This document shows, in pieces, positions 1,900-51,050 of a stretch of DNA of 64,000 bases (position 1 is the stretch's first letter; each line of letters begins with the position of its first letter). The translations under genes and the position numbers were made by a program. The DNA is from Akkermansiaceae bacterium (GTDB taxonomy: Bacteria; Verrucomicrobiota; Verrucomicrobiia; Verrucomicrobiales; Akkermansiaceae). A model generated the notes under the pieces. It ran no database searches. It saw nothing but the letters and a program-made list of their open reading frames with translations, and was not told where the DNA came from. The stretch is taken from contig JARWZU010000088.1 of the NCBI GenBank assembly GCA_029866215.1, forward strand, positions 124,001 to 188,000. The letters run 5' to 3'.

Positions 1900-1907
1900 G
1901 GGTAAAC

Positions 1908-2148
1908 GCTGAAATGCTGAAACGCTGAAAATCTGAAATAAGAAAATCTTAACGACGAATCCGCCCTTCGCATACACCTCTTCATTTCAGCTTCCCAGCT
2001 TCCCAGCTTCCCAGCTTTTCAGCATTTACCTCTAAATTTCAGCTTCTCAGTTTTTCAGCTTTTCAGCTTTTACCTCTAATCGCATTTACCTCTAAATTTC
2101 AGCTTCTCAGCTTCTCAGCTTTTCAGCATTTCAGCATTTACCTCTAAT
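1908..2148. repeat. Pyrimidine-rich TTTCAGC repeat block with inverted left arm
   Basis: The cysD-cysN gap is filled with units of the type CAGCTTCTCAGCTTTTCAGC and CATTTACCTCTAA, ending three bases before the cysN ATG. The first 30 bases after cysD (GCTGAAATGCTGAAACGCTG...) are the same unit in reverse complement, so the transcript could fold into a long imperfect stem. No Shine-Dalgarno sequence is visible before cysN; the pyrimidine tract occupies that place. Related blocks occur at several other intergenic sites in the window. Confidence 0.85.
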
Positions 2149-26686: not shown

Positions 26687-29600
26687 ATGAAAGTTCTTCA
26701 AGTATTTAACCGCTACCAAGAAAAAGGTGGCGAGGAACTCTCAGTTGAGAGGGTTTCAAATGTGATTAGCACTCGGCACAGAGTTTTTCATTGCTATTTC
26801 GACAGCATCTCATGGATGAACGAAACCGATATCATTGATCGCCTCACCCAAGCGCTGCGAATTTTCTACAATCCTCCGGCGGTCAGAAGGTTCAAACTGC
26901 AACTGAAGGCATGCAACCCAGACGTGATTCTGATGCACAACATCTTTCCCGTGGGATCGATTGGGGTTTATTGGGCAGCGATCCGCAGCGGCATTCCCGT
27001 TTTGCACTACATTCACAATTTTCGACCTTTTTCGGTCAATGGCTATCTGTGGGCAAATGAGCGCCTCGAAACGGCAGGCCTCAGGAAAAACTTTTTCCCT
27101 GAGATCTTGGCAGGATCTTGGCAAAATTCGCGACTCAAGACGGCGCTCTACGCGTTGGTGATATGGACTATGCATGCTGCTGGCATCTATCGGAAGTTTG
27201 ATGGTTGGCTGGCGATCTCGGGATTCATGCGCGACGTGTTTGTGAAAGCGGGCGTACCTGCCGAGAAAGTCTTTTTGCTTCGGCATTCGTGGGAGATGCC
27301 AAGTGCACCAAGTGCACCAAGTGCACCAAGTGCACATGGTGAAACGCCGATTCCCTATTTCCTGTTTCTTGGCAGGATTACAGAGGCCAAAGGCATCCGG
27401 GTACTGGTTGAAGCCTGGCGGTGTGTAGCGGCAGAACACCCAGAGGCGCGACTCATCATTGGTGGAGATGGGCCAGCGGCTGAGTGGCTAAGCGCTGAGA
27501 TTCGGGTTACCGACCGAATCGAATTTAAAGGCTTTGTATCAGGAGAGGAAAAAAAGCGATTGCTTCAAGGCTGTGAGGCGATGCTGGTCACCTCTGAGTG
27601 GTGGGAACCTTTGGGACTGGTGGTTTATGAAGCTTATCAATACCAGCGTCCCGTCATTGCAGCTCGATCAGGTGGACTGATGGAGACAGTGATCGATGGA
27701 AAAACTGGCTGGCTCTATCCACCTAGCAACAGCCGTGCTCTCGCAGACTGCGTCCTAGATGCTCTGCAGGCTCCTGCTGAGGCCAGTCGTCGTGGCATCG
27801 AGGGCTTCGCGTGGATGAAAAAAAATTCGCGCAACTCGGACTGGTTAGAAGATTTTGACAAAATTGCTGACGTGGTGAGGTCGCGGCGCGGAAAAGGTCG
27901 CGCCCTGAAGCCAACTGATGCACCCGACCAACCGGTGGACTTTTCAATTGTCACCGCCAGCTTTCGGCAAATTCCCTATCTCTCAAGGTGCGCAGCGAGC
28001 GTCGCCGATCAGGGTGGTGGATTTATCGTGGAACACCTGGTTCACGACGGTTGCTCTGGTGATGATTTTGACCAATGGGCTGCGAGTCAAAACTTTGCTT
28101 CATGCGTTAGCGAAAAAGATGATGGCATGTATGACGCCATCAATCGCGGTTTCGGCAGAGCTCAAGGGGCATTCCTCGCGTGGCTGAACTGTGACGAGCA
28201 GTATTTACCGGGGGCCTTAGCTCAGGTGAAGACGTGGTTCGAGAATAATCCTGACATCGATATCCTTTTTGGCGACGTGGTATTGATCACCCCTGAGGGC
28301 ATCCCTCTTGCCTATCGGAAGGCCGTCAAGCCGCTGCAGGGGCACATCCGCAGTTGCTTCCTGCCGACTTATTCGGCGGCAACCTTTGTCCGTAAAAGGG
28401 TGATTGATCAAGGATTTCTGGTCGACACTCAATACCGCGCAATTGCGGATGGGGTATGGATCGATGGCCTTTTAAGCGCCGGATTCAAAGCAGGAGTCTT
28501 GAACCAACCTCTGGCGGTCTTCACTCAAACAGGAGAAAATTTGGGACAGAGCCCCTTGGCGCGCGATGAGAACCTTGCGTGGCGCAGTCGGATGGGAAGA
28601 TCGCAGGTGATGCAACGCTTGTTATGGAGTGCAGCGCATCGATTACGAAAGCTTTTTGCGGGTGCCTACTGGAAACGAACTGTTAGAGTTCAAATTTTCG
28701 ATTTGCTGGCCAAATCACGCGTTTCGCGAGAAGCGAGAGTCGGGGAGCGTTGGGTCACCCACGTGAAGGACAATGGCGAGAGTGATCGTAATCGGGCGAT
28801 CTCATCTCCACCCTCGTCCAAATCCAAAATCGCCATCTCAGTCTACCTTGCAGATCAGAATCCAAAGCTGGGGCGAAGTTTGGGGATCTCTCGCATGACC
28901 GAAGTGATGCTGCAAGCGCTGGATCGCTCGCAAGACATCCACCTCACTGGGGTTTCTTCCGAGTCATCCATTCAGATTCTTGGCTCCACCAAAGCTGCGG
29001 TGTTGCCATGGAATACCCGTGGGGCAATGCGACGCATTCTAACCGATAACTTGCACCCACTTTTTCGTAAAGGTCAAATTCCTGATACTTATTATTTCCC
29101 GAAGGGTTTTTTACCGCGGTTGCATTGGCTTTGTTCGCCATCGGTAGTAACGATCCACGATACCATCATCCAATATTACAGTGATGTTTATCCGAAATGG
29201 CGGACTAGGATGGAATACCGTTATTGGGCCTCAATGCTCAAATACACCCTGCGACATGCAACCTGCATTCTAACGGTTTCAGAATCCGCCAAGACCCAGA
29301 TTCGAACTTTCATGGAGCGCCATGGAATCCCCGAAAAAGAGATCCTCGTGACCTATGAGCCGTGCCTCTATGAGTCCCTTCCGCAACCCGCCGAGGTGGC
29401 GAAAGAAGATTACGTGATTCACTTGGCATCACGCGAACCTCACAAACGAACGGCGCATTTGATCCAGTGGTGGCATGAAGCCGAGATGCGCGGTGATGCC
29501 TTGCCGACCCTGCATTTAATTGGCACGGTGCCATCCGAGGTAGCCCATTTGCTCACAAGCGCGCAACGAATCGTCGGTCAACCGTTTCTAAAAGAGTCGG

Positions 29601-29941
29601 CGCTGGAGGATGCCTATCGCCAAGCACGGGTGCTGATCCTACCCTCCGAGATCGAGGGCTTCGGACTACCAGCATTAGAAGCCTACTACCTCGGAACGCC
29701 CGTGTGCTATGTGAAGGGCACCTCGGTAGAGGAAGTGCTAAGACCTGCGACCGCAAAAGGCGGCTTTAACCTAGACGATGCCGCATCACTTTTCTCCGCC
29801 CTCGACGAGGTCATGACCATGAGCCCCGAAGAAGTCAAACAATGCGGACTGAAGCTAAGGGAAACCTATGCCGCCGAGAAGGTGGTAGAGAGAATGATCG
29901 ATGCATTCCGCCGTGTAGCGGCGGGGAGCTCTGGGAGGTAA
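26687..29941 (+). CDS. Three-domain glycosyltransferase fusion (GT4-GT2-GT4)
   Basis: This 1084-residue protein joins three transferase domains. Domain 1 (about 1-395) is GT4 with EPLGLVVYEAYQYQRPV near 307. Domain 2 (about 415-610) is GT2 with FSIVTASFRQIPYLSRC and WLNCDEQYLPGAL near 500. Domain 3 (about 713-1084) is GT4 with EGFGLPALEAYYLGTP near 989. A short APS tripeptide repeat from a 9-base tandem repeat (AGTGCACCA) sits near residue 205 inside domain 1, in the linker between its two halves. One protein could add several sugars in order. No frameshift is seen. Confidence 0.85.
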   Translation: MKVLQVFNRYQEKGGEELSVERVSNVISTRHRVFHCYFDSISWMNETDIIDRLTQALRIFYNPPAVRRFKLQLKACNPDVILMHNIFPVGSIGVYWAAIRSGIPVLHYIHNFRPFSVNGYLWANERLETAGLRKNFFPEILAGSWQNSRLKTALYALVIWTMHAAGIYRKFDGWLAISGFMRDVFVKAGVPAEKVFLLRHSWEMPSAPSAPSAPSAHGETPIPYFLFLGRITEAKGIRVLVEAWRCVAAEHPEARLIIGGDGPAAEWLSAEIRVTDRIEFKGFVSGEEKKRLLQGCEAMLVTSEWWEPLGLVVYEAYQYQRPVIAARSGGLMETVIDGKTGWLYPPSNSRALADCVLDALQAPAEASRRGIEGFAWMKKNSRNSDWLEDFDKIADVVRSRRGKGRALKPTDAPDQPVDFSIVTASFRQIPYLSRCAASVADQGGGFIVEHLVHDGCSGDDFDQWAASQNFASCVSEKDDGMYDAINRGFGRAQGAFLAWLNCDEQYLPGALAQVKTWFENNPDIDILFGDVVLITPEGIPLAYRKAVKPLQGHIRSCFLPTYSAATFVRKRVIDQGFLVDTQYRAIADGVWIDGLLSAGFKAGVLNQPLAVFTQTGENLGQSPLARDENLAWRSRMGRSQVMQRLLWSAAHRLRKLFAGAYWKRTVRVQIFDLLAKSRVSREARVGERWVTHVKDNGESDRNRAISSPPSSKSKIAISVYLADQNPKLGRSLGISRMTEVMLQALDRSQDIHLTGVSSESSIQILGSTKAAVLPWNTRGAMRRILTDNLHPLFRKGQIPDTYYFPKGFLPRLHWLCSPSVVTIHDTIIQYYSDVYPKWRTRMEYRYWASMLKYTLRHATCILTVSESAKTQIRTFMERHGIPEKEILVTYEPCLYESLPQPAEVAKEDYVIHLASREPHKRTAHLIQWWHEAEMRGDALPTLHLIGTVPSEVAHLLTSAQRIVGQPFLKESALEDAYRQARVLILPSEIEGFGLPALEAYYLGTPVCYVKGTSVEEVLRPATAKGGFNLDDAASLFSALDEVMTMSPEEVKQCGLKLRETYAAEKVVERMIDAFRRVAAGSSGR
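27300..27335 (+). repeat. In-frame 9-base tandem repeat in the GT fusion
   Basis: AGTGCACCA is repeated three times and followed by a partial copy (AGTGCACAT). It encodes Ser-Ala-Pro units in frame. The unit is a multiple of three, so copy changes would alter linker length without breaking the frame. Confidence 0.85.
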
Positions 29942-30042
29942 AGCTGAAATTGGGAAAGTTGAAAGCTGAAATTGGGAGGAGAGGATGTGAGGTAAGTTAG
30001 ATTTTTGGACCACCACCTCCACAGTCAGCCCAGATAAATATT
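29942..30042 (-). repeat. Reverse-oriented repeat arm after the GT fusion
   Basis: Bases 29942-29980 (AAGCTGAAATTGGGAAAGTTGAAAGC...) are the reverse complement of the repeat block at 30200-30360; a 28-base stretch pairs perfectly with the copy around 30210-30240. The remainder up to 30042 shows no feature except the beginning of the transposase relic frame. Confidence 0.8.
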
Positions 30043-30150
30043 AAGCCACGCAAACCCTGCACCGCAGAGTTCAAAGTTCAGGCGGTTGAACTCATTCGTA
30101 CCGAGAAGCCCGTGTCCCAATTCGAGGTAAAAAAACCGTATCTTAACTAA
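30043..30150 (+). pseudogene. IS3-family transposase OrfA N-terminal relic
   Basis: The frame from 30043 reads KPRKPCTAEFKVQAVELIR then TEKPVSQ and stops at TAA about 30148-30150. This is the start of the helix-turn-helix protein OrfA of IS3-type elements (K-P-R-K-x-Y-T-x-E-F-K-x-x-A-V-x-L-I pattern). There is no start codon, the rest of OrfA and all of OrfB are missing, and no terminal inverted repeats of an IS are seen. It is enclosed by inverted arms of the intergenic repeat family. Confidence 0.65.
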
Positions 30151-30186
30151 GCTAAAAGCCTCCAAAAATCGGTTGCATCTCAAACA

Positions 30187-30362
30187 CATTTTCCCCGTCT
30201 TTCATTCCAGCTTTCAGCTTTCAACTTTCCCAATTTCAGCTTTACCCCTTCTTCCCCGTCTTCCCTTTCAGCTTTCAGCTTTCAGCTTTCCCAATTTCAG
30301 CTTTACCCCTTCTTCCCCTTTTCCCATTTCAGTTTTCAACTTTCCCAATTTCAGCTTTACCC
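30187..30362 (+). repeat. Pyrimidine-rich repeat block before the DUF268 gene
   Basis: Three copies of a roughly 55-base unit, AGCTTTCAACTTTCCCAATT followed by TCAGCTTTACCCCTTCTTCC, fill this stretch in + orientation. The last copy ends TTTACCCG directly against the ATG at 30364. This is a local variant of the family, with CTTTCCCAATTTCAGC in place of TTCTACCTCTAAAC. Confidence 0.85.
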
Positions 30363-30363
30363 G

Positions 30364-31128
30364 ATGCTTCGAGCCATTTTACGCAACGCGGGAATTCATC
30401 CCCGTCGAATCCTCTCCTCCCTGACGGGTTGGCGGCGATATGCTCGGGAACGTGCGAGTTTCCGGAAAATGACGGGAGCAGATGCTCTGCCGTGGGGACG
30501 CGAACTGCCAATCCTCACGGAATGGGACGAGTCGTCCGGCTCGCTTGGGGCTTACTTCCATCAGGATCAGGTGGTGGCGCGGTGGATTTACGAAGCAAGG
30601 CCTGTACGCCATCTGGATGTGGGCTCCAGGTTGGATGGTTTCATCGGCAGCTTGTCCGTATTCCGTGAGGTGGAGGTCATTGATATCCGACCGCAGCCAC
30701 GACCGGTTCACAACGTGAGCTTTCATCAACTCGACCTCATGGGCGAACTGCAATCGCAGTGGATCGAAGCCACTGATTCGCTTTCCTGCCTGCACACGAT
30801 CGAGCATTTCGGGCTGGGACGCTACGGGGATCCCATCGATCCGCAGGGCTATCAGAAGGGTCTGGAGCAAATGAAGCGGATAGTCAAACCAGGCGGATTG
30901 TTTCATCTATCCACTCCCATCGGGCCGCAGCGTGTTGAATTCAACGCCCACCGCATCTTTGCACCGGCGACTCTGCTCGATTGGTTCGCCGACGGCTGGA
31001 CTGTAGAAAAATGCGCGGTGATCGATGACGATTGCAATGTGTTCGAGGGAGTGGGTTCAGACTTGCTGAAGGCAGCGAAGTGTCAAATGGGAGTCGGAAT
31101 CGTCGCTGCGAGGAAAGTCCAAGGGTAA
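30364..31128 (+). CDS. DUF268-family protein (methyltransferase-like)
   Basis: The 254-residue protein shows HLDVGSRLDGFIGSL near residue 83, a Rossmann-type SAM-binding-like motif, and SLSCLHTIEHFGLGRYGDP near 139, the signature of DUF268 proteins from glycan clusters. MKRIVKPGGLFHLSTPIG near 171 is the usual methyltransferase strand after motif III. It may methylate or otherwise modify a sugar; direct evidence for the family is lacking. ATG 30364 follows the repeat block with no Shine-Dalgarno sequence. The nearby GT11 gene starts 134 bases downstream. Confidence 0.75.
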   Translation: MLRAILRNAGIHPRRILSSLTGWRRYARERASFRKMTGADALPWGRELPILTEWDESSGSLGAYFHQDQVVARWIYEARPVRHLDVGSRLDGFIGSLSVFREVEVIDIRPQPRPVHNVSFHQLDLMGELQSQWIEATDSLSCLHTIEHFGLGRYGDPIDPQGYQKGLEQMKRIVKPGGLFHLSTPIGPQRVEFNAHRIFAPATLLDWFADGWTVEKCAVIDDDCNVFEGVGSDLLKAAKCQMGVGIVAARKVQG

Positions 31129-31205
31129 AGGAATACTCCAAAAAAATTGAAAGTTAAAAGCGGCCGCCGCATACGTTAGGTGCCACCCCTTCTTCTCTGT
31201 AGCAT

Positions 31206-31260
31206 TCACTTTCCAGAATTTCAGCTTCTCAGATTTTCAGTTTTTCAGCTTTTACCACCT
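31206..31260 (+). repeat. Pyrimidine-rich repeat block before the GT11 gene
   Basis: AATTTCAGCTTCTCAG, ATTTTCAG, TTTTTCAGC and TTTTACCACCTAA lie directly before ATG 31263. Again the TTTACC element sits in place of a Shine-Dalgarno sequence. Confidence 0.75.
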
Positions 31261-31262
31261 AA

Positions 31263-32168
31263 ATGATACGCATCGTCCTACTGGGCCGTACTGGTAATAA
31301 CATTTTCCAATATGCACTAGGACGTGTGTTGGCTCAACAGCATGGGGTGCCGCTAGTATTGGATGCATCTTGGTTCAACGCGGAGGGTTGGGCAGAGGTT
31401 TCCCACTTTTTACGTTTACCGATCCAAGCGAAGGTGATCCGCCCATTTTCGTTGGGATCTCGTGCGTTCCGCAATCTAACGGGAAAACATTTCTGGGAGT
31501 ATCGCAGATTTCCTTTTATCAAAGAACCCACAAGCGATCAGTCGTTTGATCCTCGCTACCTCTCCAGTCCTGCTGATTGTTGCCTCTTCGGATATTTCCA
31601 ATCACCGCTGTATTTTCAGGGCATCGCGGACGAGTTGCGCGCCGAATTGAATGAACTGATTTCGTTAGGAGCACACTCACCCAGTGGAAAAGACTCGTTG
31701 TCGGATTTCGGGTCCACCCAAGGATCTCGTCGGGCTAAAATTCGATCGCTTGCCGAAAACCTGAATTCGCCTGCCAGCGTAGCCGTTCACATTCGCCGAG
31801 GGGATTATCAGCACCACCCCTGTTTCCAAGTCTGCGACTTGGAATACTATCAAAAATCCATTGAAACCATGCGCGCCCGCATTCCAGGGGCGCGTTTTTT
31901 TATTTTCTCGGACGACCCCGAGTGGTGCAGGTCAGCGTTTCGTGAGGACGATGTAGTCATCATCGACCCGGGATCAGCAGGCAAGAATCCTCTGCACGAT
32001 CTCCATCTCATGAGCCTTGCGTCTCACCATATCATCGCGAACAGCACGTATTCATGGTGGGCCGCATGGCTAGGCGACAAGCCCGATCAACAGGTCCTGA
32101 TGCCTGACCGCTGGTATGCACATGACATCACCGCGCCCATTGAAGAAAAATTTTGGAAATCGCCTTAG
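31263..32168 (+). CDS. Alpha-1,2-fucosyltransferase-like enzyme (GT11)
   Basis: The 301-residue protein has the GT11 N-terminal motif LLGRTGNNIFQYALGR near residue 5, the donor motif VAVHIRRGDY near 177 and ANSTYSWWAAWLG near 259. All three are standard in bacterial alpha-1,2-fucosyltransferases such as FutC and WbsJ. It should add fucose, or a similar deoxyhexose, from a GDP donor. No GDP-fucose synthesis genes (gmd, fcl) are visible in the window. The middle (about 130-170) has a serine-rich insert (SPSGKDSLSDFGSTQGS). Confidence 0.85.
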   Translation: MIRIVLLGRTGNNIFQYALGRVLAQQHGVPLVLDASWFNAEGWAEVSHFLRLPIQAKVIRPFSLGSRAFRNLTGKHFWEYRRFPFIKEPTSDQSFDPRYLSSPADCCLFGYFQSPLYFQGIADELRAELNELISLGAHSPSGKDSLSDFGSTQGSRRAKIRSLAENLNSPASVAVHIRRGDYQHHPCFQVCDLEYYQKSIETMRARIPGARFFIFSDDPEWCRSAFREDDVVIIDPGSAGKNPLHDLHLMSLASHHIIANSTYSWWAAWLGDKPDQQVLMPDRWYAHDITAPIEEKFWKSP

Positions 32169-37558: not shown

Positions 37559-37563
37559 GTTTC

Positions 37564-37654
37564 CGTCCTCCGTCCTCCGTCCTCCGTCCTCCGTCCTCCG
37601 TCCTCCGTCCTCCGTCCTCCGTCCTCCGTCCTCCGTCCTCCGTCCTCCGTCCTC
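37564..37654 (+). repeat. Tandem array of 13 perfect CGTCCTC units
   Basis: Thirteen uninterrupted copies of the 7-base unit CGTCCTC span 91 bases between two glycosyltransferase genes, ending 41 bases before the ATG at 37696. Perfect short tandem arrays of this kind are prone to slipped-strand mutation. The following leader (TTTCTGCTTTCTGCTTTACC) resembles the other pyrimidine-rich leaders in the window. Confidence 0.95.
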
Positions 37655-37695
37655 CGCTTTTTGCTCTCTGCTTTCTGCTTTCTGCTTTACCTCCC

Positions 37696-50875: not shown

Positions 50876-51050
50876 ACCCGCCATCTCTGAGATGTTGCGT
50901 TTGCGTGGCTTGGTATTCATCTGGGCTGATGATGGAGGTGGTGGTTCAAAAAAGCTAGCTCACCTCAGAGGTCATAGTCGAAGCTCCATGGAAGAAGGGA
51001 TTGATCATAGAGATTCTCGAATGATCCTGAGATAGGAGGCAGGGTTAGGT

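Follow-up and report, generated by a model that had tools for sequence, protein, structure and literature searches.

What is the relation between an IS3-type transposase remnant and the inverted repeat arms that enclose it: did the insertion sequence (IS) bring the repeats, or did it enter a structure of another kind? The locus lies in a 64,000-nucleotide stretch (the window, by which we mean the whole stretch of DNA that was analysed) of contig C4 of an Akkermansiaceae genome of 3.03 Mb in 88 contigs. Judged from their sequences, the relic and the repeats are two unrelated things, one nested in the other. The IS relic on its own is unremarkable. What is notable is the presence of repeat-built hairpins that fill the space from a stop codon to the next start codon, and the strong statistical association of inverted, 7-nt-periodic arms of this type with S23 genes. 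The features are collected in Table 1.

Table 1. Features of the locus and related features in the window (positions in the window)
Feature	Position	Strand	Basis
cysD-cysN hairpin (IS-free): stop-flush arm GGTAAACGCTGAAATGCTGAAACGCTGAAAATCTGA, 1 nt downstream of the cysD stop	1901..1936	-	repeat/gene-pair scan
cysD-cysN hairpin: start-flush array of TTTCAGC repeats, with TTTCAGCATTTACC at its end, 9 nt upstream of the cysN ATG (2152)	1985..2142	+	repeat/gene-pair scan
Upstream gene: 1084-aa multi-domain glycosyltransferase (GT4 + GT2 + GT4)	26687..29941	+	ORF call, Pfam
Left (stop-flush) arm: TTTCAGC...TTTACC array in inverted copy, reading GGTAAAGCTGAAATTGGGAAAGTTGAAAGCTGAAATTGGG	29937..29976	-	sequence comparison
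IS3-family relic, 195 bp, both termini, internal deletion	29988..30182	+	alignment to both IS ends
Left IS terminus TGAGGTAAGTTAGATTTTTGGACCACCACCTCC, differing from the intact C65 copy at 2 positions	29988..30020	+	alignment
In-frame fusion of the OrfA N-terminus with the final ~10 aa of OrfB; ends FEVKKPYLN*	30034..30150	+	ORF, alignment
Deletion junction CCCAA..TCG, common to OrfA (CCCCAAATCG) and the OrfB end (GCCCAATTCG)	30116..30125	+	alignment
Right IS terminus, reads CCTCCAAAAATCGGTTGCATCTCA on the + strand	30159..30182	-	alignment
Start-flush arms built of 61-bp TTTCAGC repeat units, with TTTCAGCTTTACCCG at the end, immediately before ATG	30191..30362	+	sequence comparison
Downstream gene: DUF268 / methyltransferase-like protein	30364..31128	+	ORF call, Pfam
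One-sided start-flush array before the gene at 31263	31214..31253	+	repeat scan
Another scrap of this IS: ~70 bp of the left end joined to possible 7-10 nt of the right end	50888..50967	-	alignment

Repeat arms between the glycosyltransferase and DUF268 genes

The original prediction that a reverse-oriented repeat after the glycosyltransferase fusion matches forward copies before the DUF268 gene describes a real, perfect inverted match, but the perfect stretch is 35 nt instead of about 28, and the single pair becomes one left-hand and three right-hand arms. Positions 29937-29971 have an inverted identity of 35/35 with 30212-30246 and of 34/35 with 30273-30307, and positions 29937-29975 match 30323-30361 at 37/39. 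All perfect 16-mer inverted pairs no more than 500 nt apart in the whole 64-kb window are at this locus, and 20 shuffled windows contained no such pair within 500 nt; thus, the inverted arms are real and not a product of chance. The TAA stop codon of the glycosyltransferase gene (29939-29941) falls inside the left arm. The stem starts 5 nt before the end of this stop codon and ends 1-2 nt before the downstream ATG. The predicted hairpin RNA folds far better than shuffled sequences (z -6.7), and several foldings compete because there are three tandem arms on the right-hand side.

The hairpin thus consists of short (~7 bp) inverted tandem repeats between adjacent co-directional genes, with terminal arms forming a long stem, and it lies between protein genes and not in 23S rRNA, the classical location of intervening sequences (IVSs). 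Its loop contains the IS3 relic and no S23 (PF05635) ORF. An Rfam search of 29000-32000 matched no family, and a literature search with the repeat sequence itself found nothing relevant.

A dead IS3 element in the loop

The enclosed segment was correctly recognized as an IS3-type transposase relic, as OrfA similarity and DNA matches to IS copies of the same genome indicate. It had been described as the start of OrfA; OrfA is indeed there, but the relic is longer and keeps both IS ends, with exact boundaries (TGAG at 29988 and CTCA at 30182, aligned to both IS ends) and terminal inverted repeats at both ends (TGAGRTG...GATTTTTGGACC). In the frame reading INIKPRKPCTAEFKVQAVELIR, the first ~30 OrfA codons are joined in frame to the last ~10 OrfB codons, the middle having been lost at a CCCAA microhomology, and the start codon has changed from ATG to ATA. 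This frame is 69% identical to an intact OrfA of the same genome over 29 aa (E=6.3e-5), and the relic DNA matches own-genome IS copies down to E=5e-31, with identities of 81-82% to their left ends and 82-85% to their right ends; the divergence from the better-preserved copies is 15-19%. Since neither the 34-aa nor the 51-aa relic frame had a transposase match in Pfam, the identity of the relic rests on its DNA and on the own-genome OrfA, which matches PF01527 and NF033516.

Intact relatives in other species are ~1.26 kb long, with TGAGG..CCTCA ends and an OrfA (104 aa) overlapping an OrfB (280 aa). In an intact relative copy, OrfA matches HTH_Tnp_1, and OrfB matches both rve and the NCBIfam model transpos_IS3 (313.7 bits, cut-off 160); the rve integrase core is also found at the start of own-genome contig C79, whereas the relic retains only the last ~10 OrfB residues. 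One clear 3-bp target duplication (GAG/GAG) flanks an intact copy in G013. The own-genome OrfA carries TTTTAAAAAAAG, which we take to resemble the sequences that IS3 elements use for -1 frameshifting. Shared with the IS3 family are the OrfA HTH_Tnp_1 and OrfB rve domains, the ends and the 3-bp duplication of the intact relatives; the relic differs from them in lacking a start codon, most of both ORFs and a target duplication. No duplication was detected at the relic under either plausible IS boundary (flanks ATG / AAC); a decayed IS copy can lose its target duplication. Like a MITE, the relic is non-autonomous and internally deleted with both termini kept, but no second copy with its junction was found in its own genome and 58 relatives. 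It is a dead, MITE-like scrap of an IS3 element. The orthologous glycosyltransferase-DUF268 junctions read in other species contain no IS.

Polarity and distribution of the TTTCAGC arrays

We counted TTTCAGC near genes in 815 kb of the own genome, a sample enriched in contigs with the repeat, in which a simple ORF rule served to define the genes. In the 150 nt before starts, 31 copies are in sense and 2 in antisense orientation, while in the 150 nt after stops, 2 are in sense and 18 in antisense; a reversed control heptamer showed no strand bias near genes in the same 815 kb. In 26 of 31 intergenic arrays, the end ...CAGC(A)TTTACC is the one turned towards a gene start or stop. The inverted pair follows from this polarity, with one array directed at the upstream stop and the other at the downstream start. 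Many arrays are one-sided. A random 300-kb sample of the genome contained almost no arrays, indicating that they are clustered, with many of them in the window. In G006, the polarity is not clear.

The array end TTTCAGCATTTACC has ~60 occurrences in 19 genomes of the genus and none in 22 genomes from other genera of the order, and its reversed control was found nowhere in the genomes searched. Eighteen of 30 such loci lie no more than 60 nt before a start codon, most of them within 12 nt. As a general leader motif, TTTCAGC was ruled out, being carried by only a minority of genes. There is no excess of Shine-Dalgarno-like sequence in these genomes. In G000, the 30 nt preceding start codons are enriched in TCTAAC (20 vs 2) but not in Shine-Dalgarno-like motifs. 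Separately, the window has a perfect TCCGTCC heptamer array of 13.6 copies, followed by GCTTTCT repeats, at 37562-37656.

Similar hairpins at cysD-cysN and other operon junctions

A scan of 217 co-directional gene pairs in 815 kb gave a hairpin score of at least 14 for only two, the focal pair and cysD-cysN, both in the window, with a null maximum of 12. The cysD-cysN hairpin uses its own local repeat variant, and its RNA is also predicted to fold far better than shuffled sequences (z -5.8). The same stop/start architecture is present at operon junctions of at least three other species (G013, G001 and, between infB and rbfA, G036), and TTTCAGC hairpins lie between cysD and cysN in G003 and G016, all of them IS-free; gene names at these junctions were read from translations.

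Among 30 species, the cysD-cysN gap, where both gene ends could be placed, ranges from 5 nt without repeats to 867 nt. GTCTAAA arms surround an ORF of PF05635, the 23S-rRNA-intervening-sequence protein, at this junction in G001, G013 and G026. In G061, the hairpin at this junction is empty, and its arms (GTTTTCAG) have a sequence that also forms the arms of S23-bearing elements. The cysD-cysN junctions of G081, G027 and G060 (L301, L306 and L315) carry a small nucleotidyltransferase-like gene, sometimes with a short partner ORF before it.

Inverted arms around S23 genes

The chance sighting of S23 in cysD-cysN junctions led us to a controlled test of S23 loci. Inverted flanking arms scoring at least 15 were found at 45 of the 71 best-scoring PF05635 loci of the genus, which are not a random draw and include some near relatives, compared to 1.3% of shuffled flank pairs and 6 of 459 small control genes (Fisher p ~5e-40). 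These arms are themselves periodic, with a self-identity of 0.61 at lag 7 and 0.57 at lag 14, against 0.38 at lag 8 and ~0.27 at most other lags, and the left arm starts a median of 6 nt after the upstream stop. Outside the genus but within the phylum, 14 of 30 S23 loci have arms (vs 0.9%). The literature searched, to which subscription journals mostly did not belong, held no description of this link between S23 and arms.

The genome of the window has S23 genes on contigs C1 and C65. The one on C1 (L331, G000:C1:94681-95052) lies between apparent rfbB and rfbA genes and has weaker inverted arms (score 12). All S23 matches listed in a plasmid collection (L432-L445) come from cyanobacteria, and inverted GCAGGGG-type arms flank most of them on either side. 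Arms score at least 12 at 11 of these 14 cyanobacterial plasmid loci, a result that is only suggestive because all share one repeat, which raises shuffled pairs to 31%.

No S23 gene with TTTCAGC arms was found among these loci, and the arms of the window match no S23 arm by sequence (scores 8-12). Thus, we do not file the hairpin of the window as an IVS.

Nature of the hairpin

Taken together, the locus is probably an intercistronic repeat-armed hairpin, an S23-less member of a class of S23 hairpins, which holds a dead IS3 element in its loop; its geometry, its repeat type and the shared cysD-cysN site all point to membership in this class. In the same genus, more complete members of the class have an S23 gene in the loop. 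The arms would form the stem of a hairpin made of ~7-8-nt TTTCAGC repeats. An IS3-family element presumably landed in the intergenic region, within the hairpin loop, and then decayed and was deleted internally. If the two genes share an mRNA, the stem would fold out the whole insert and bring stop and start together, and the putative duplex of at least 35 bp would be suited to RNase III. The hairpin may therefore act by bridging stop and start, as an RNase III substrate or in transcript stability, and it may be mobile.

We can suggest, tentatively and with more doubt than confidence, a wider reading: the window hairpin would be an S23-less member of widespread mobile IVS-like RNA hairpin elements that insert between operon genes, just after the stop codon, and the S23 protein, or a process that it joins, would build and spread the 7-nt arm arrays. 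To our knowledge, S23 has no known function, and we know of no answer to the old question of where intergenic heptamer repeats (STRRs) come from. If this reading is true, S23-built arrays would explain such repeats in this phylum and in cyanobacteria; if the link between S23 and arms holds, each of the two problems becomes a handle on the other.

Three known systems resemble parts of this picture. The IVS in the 23S rRNA gene of Coxiella burnetii has a stem of 28 bp, a loop that contains an S23 ORF, and heptamer repeats before the S23 start, and is excised by RNase III (PMC4990558). The S23 hairpins have the terminal inverted repeats, the S23 ORF in the loop and the heptamer repeats in common with it; however, the hairpins described here lie between protein genes, their arms are themselves repeat arrays, and the copy in the window lacks S23. 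The TAACTGA heptamers of Beggiatoaceae are direct repeats a few nt upstream of start codons (PMC4679880). They share this position with our arrays, but the heptamer is another one and nearly all copies are direct, whereas here inverted partners follow the upstream stop. In cyanobacteria, 7-bp STRRs can form a hairpin between the adjacent genes hupS and hupL, and roles in stability or coupling have been suggested (PMC2670836). Here the repeat and the host group are different, both arms directly adjoin the codons at which the neighbouring genes stop and start, and related hairpins enclose S23 genes, an arrangement of which we found no description.

The hupS-hupL case also lends weight to an alternative, in which the locus is an intercistronic repeat hairpin that acts in the mRNA, on its stability, its processing or translational coupling, is unrelated to S23 and holds the IS relic only incidentally. 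The close fit of the hairpins to stop and start codons in several species, the fold z-scores of both window hairpins and the lack of S23 genes with TTTCAGC arms among the loci found are all consistent with it. We nevertheless regard it as unlikely: the hairpins are not conserved at orthologous junctions, as the range of cysD-cysN gaps illustrates, as would be expected of an insertable element and not of a fixed regulatory part, and the cysD-cysN junction hosts both S23-bearing and empty versions.

Somewhat less likely still is a neutral origin, in which slippage-prone arrays gained inverted copies by template switching during replication and are neither functional nor an element. Local copying of this kind would account for the left arm being closest to its own local right arm (35/35, compared with 30-32/35 for other copies) and for the local variant used by the cysD-cysN hairpin. 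It predicts neither the flush placement at stop and start, nor the polarity, nor the concentration of arms around one protein family.

The IS is independent of the repeats

Searching the genome with the relic segment, we found the left IS end and OrfA where contigs C22, C65 and C41 end, and the right end close to where C4 and C79 begin; contigs broken inside an IS are what is expected of collapsed multi-copy insertion sequences. These near-full copies have the ends TGAGGTGAGCTAGATTTTTGGACC / GGTCCAAAAATCGGTTGCATCTCA, and TTTCAGC is absent from their ends and flanks, as it is beside the second IS scrap of the window. Conversely, the repeat occurs without an IS at ~15 other sites besides the focal locus, where it often has a 21-mer array, CTTAAGCCTCCGTAATCGACR, on its tail side. 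The IS thus neither made nor moved the repeats, and the suggestion that they may mark insertion points or have been carried by the element is not supported; the inspection of copy ends that had been proposed along with it, made on the near-full copies, gave the outcome named there as contrary.

A more specific proposal, that the IS chose the hairpin loop as its target, has a precedent in IS1397 and ISKpn1, members of the IS3 family that insert in REP/palindromic units (PMC1525189), and our locus likewise has an IS3-type element inside intergenic repeats. Besides the relic between its arms, one intact copy in G036 (L055, contig C10, ~600-640) sits inside a palindromic CRISPR repeat (GTCGCCCCTCACACGAGGGGCGCGGATTGAAAC) and one in G013 sits in a 21-mer array. 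However, all or most copies of an IS1397-type element would be expected in a palindromic repeat, and the flanks of ~25 other copies here have no palindrome, no consistent repeat target and no TTTCAGC arms, which rules out targeting as a rule and makes it very improbable for the relic. An origin of the repeats in the IS3 element, whether as part of it, as its cargo or as its product, is hardly credible, as physical nesting is all that speaks for it, while the IS termini and the repeats are separate sequences, IS copies occur without repeats and inverted arms occur without an IS.

The 21-mer has a distribution of its own. Dispersed 21-mer arrays or single units, together with ATTTCAGCTTTCTGCTTTCCAAATTTCMGCTTTACCCC, are found on contigs C71, C16, C38, C35, C45, C60 and C42 of G000 (L013, L017-L021 and L028), and these composites often abut gene 3' ends. 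At one further site (L168, G000:C5:11687-11719), a lone IS left end runs straight into CCTCCGTAATCGACACTCAAG, the 21-mer that accompanies TTTCAGC elsewhere; as the IS and the 21-mer have CACCTCCRTAATC in common, this joint may be a recombination product.
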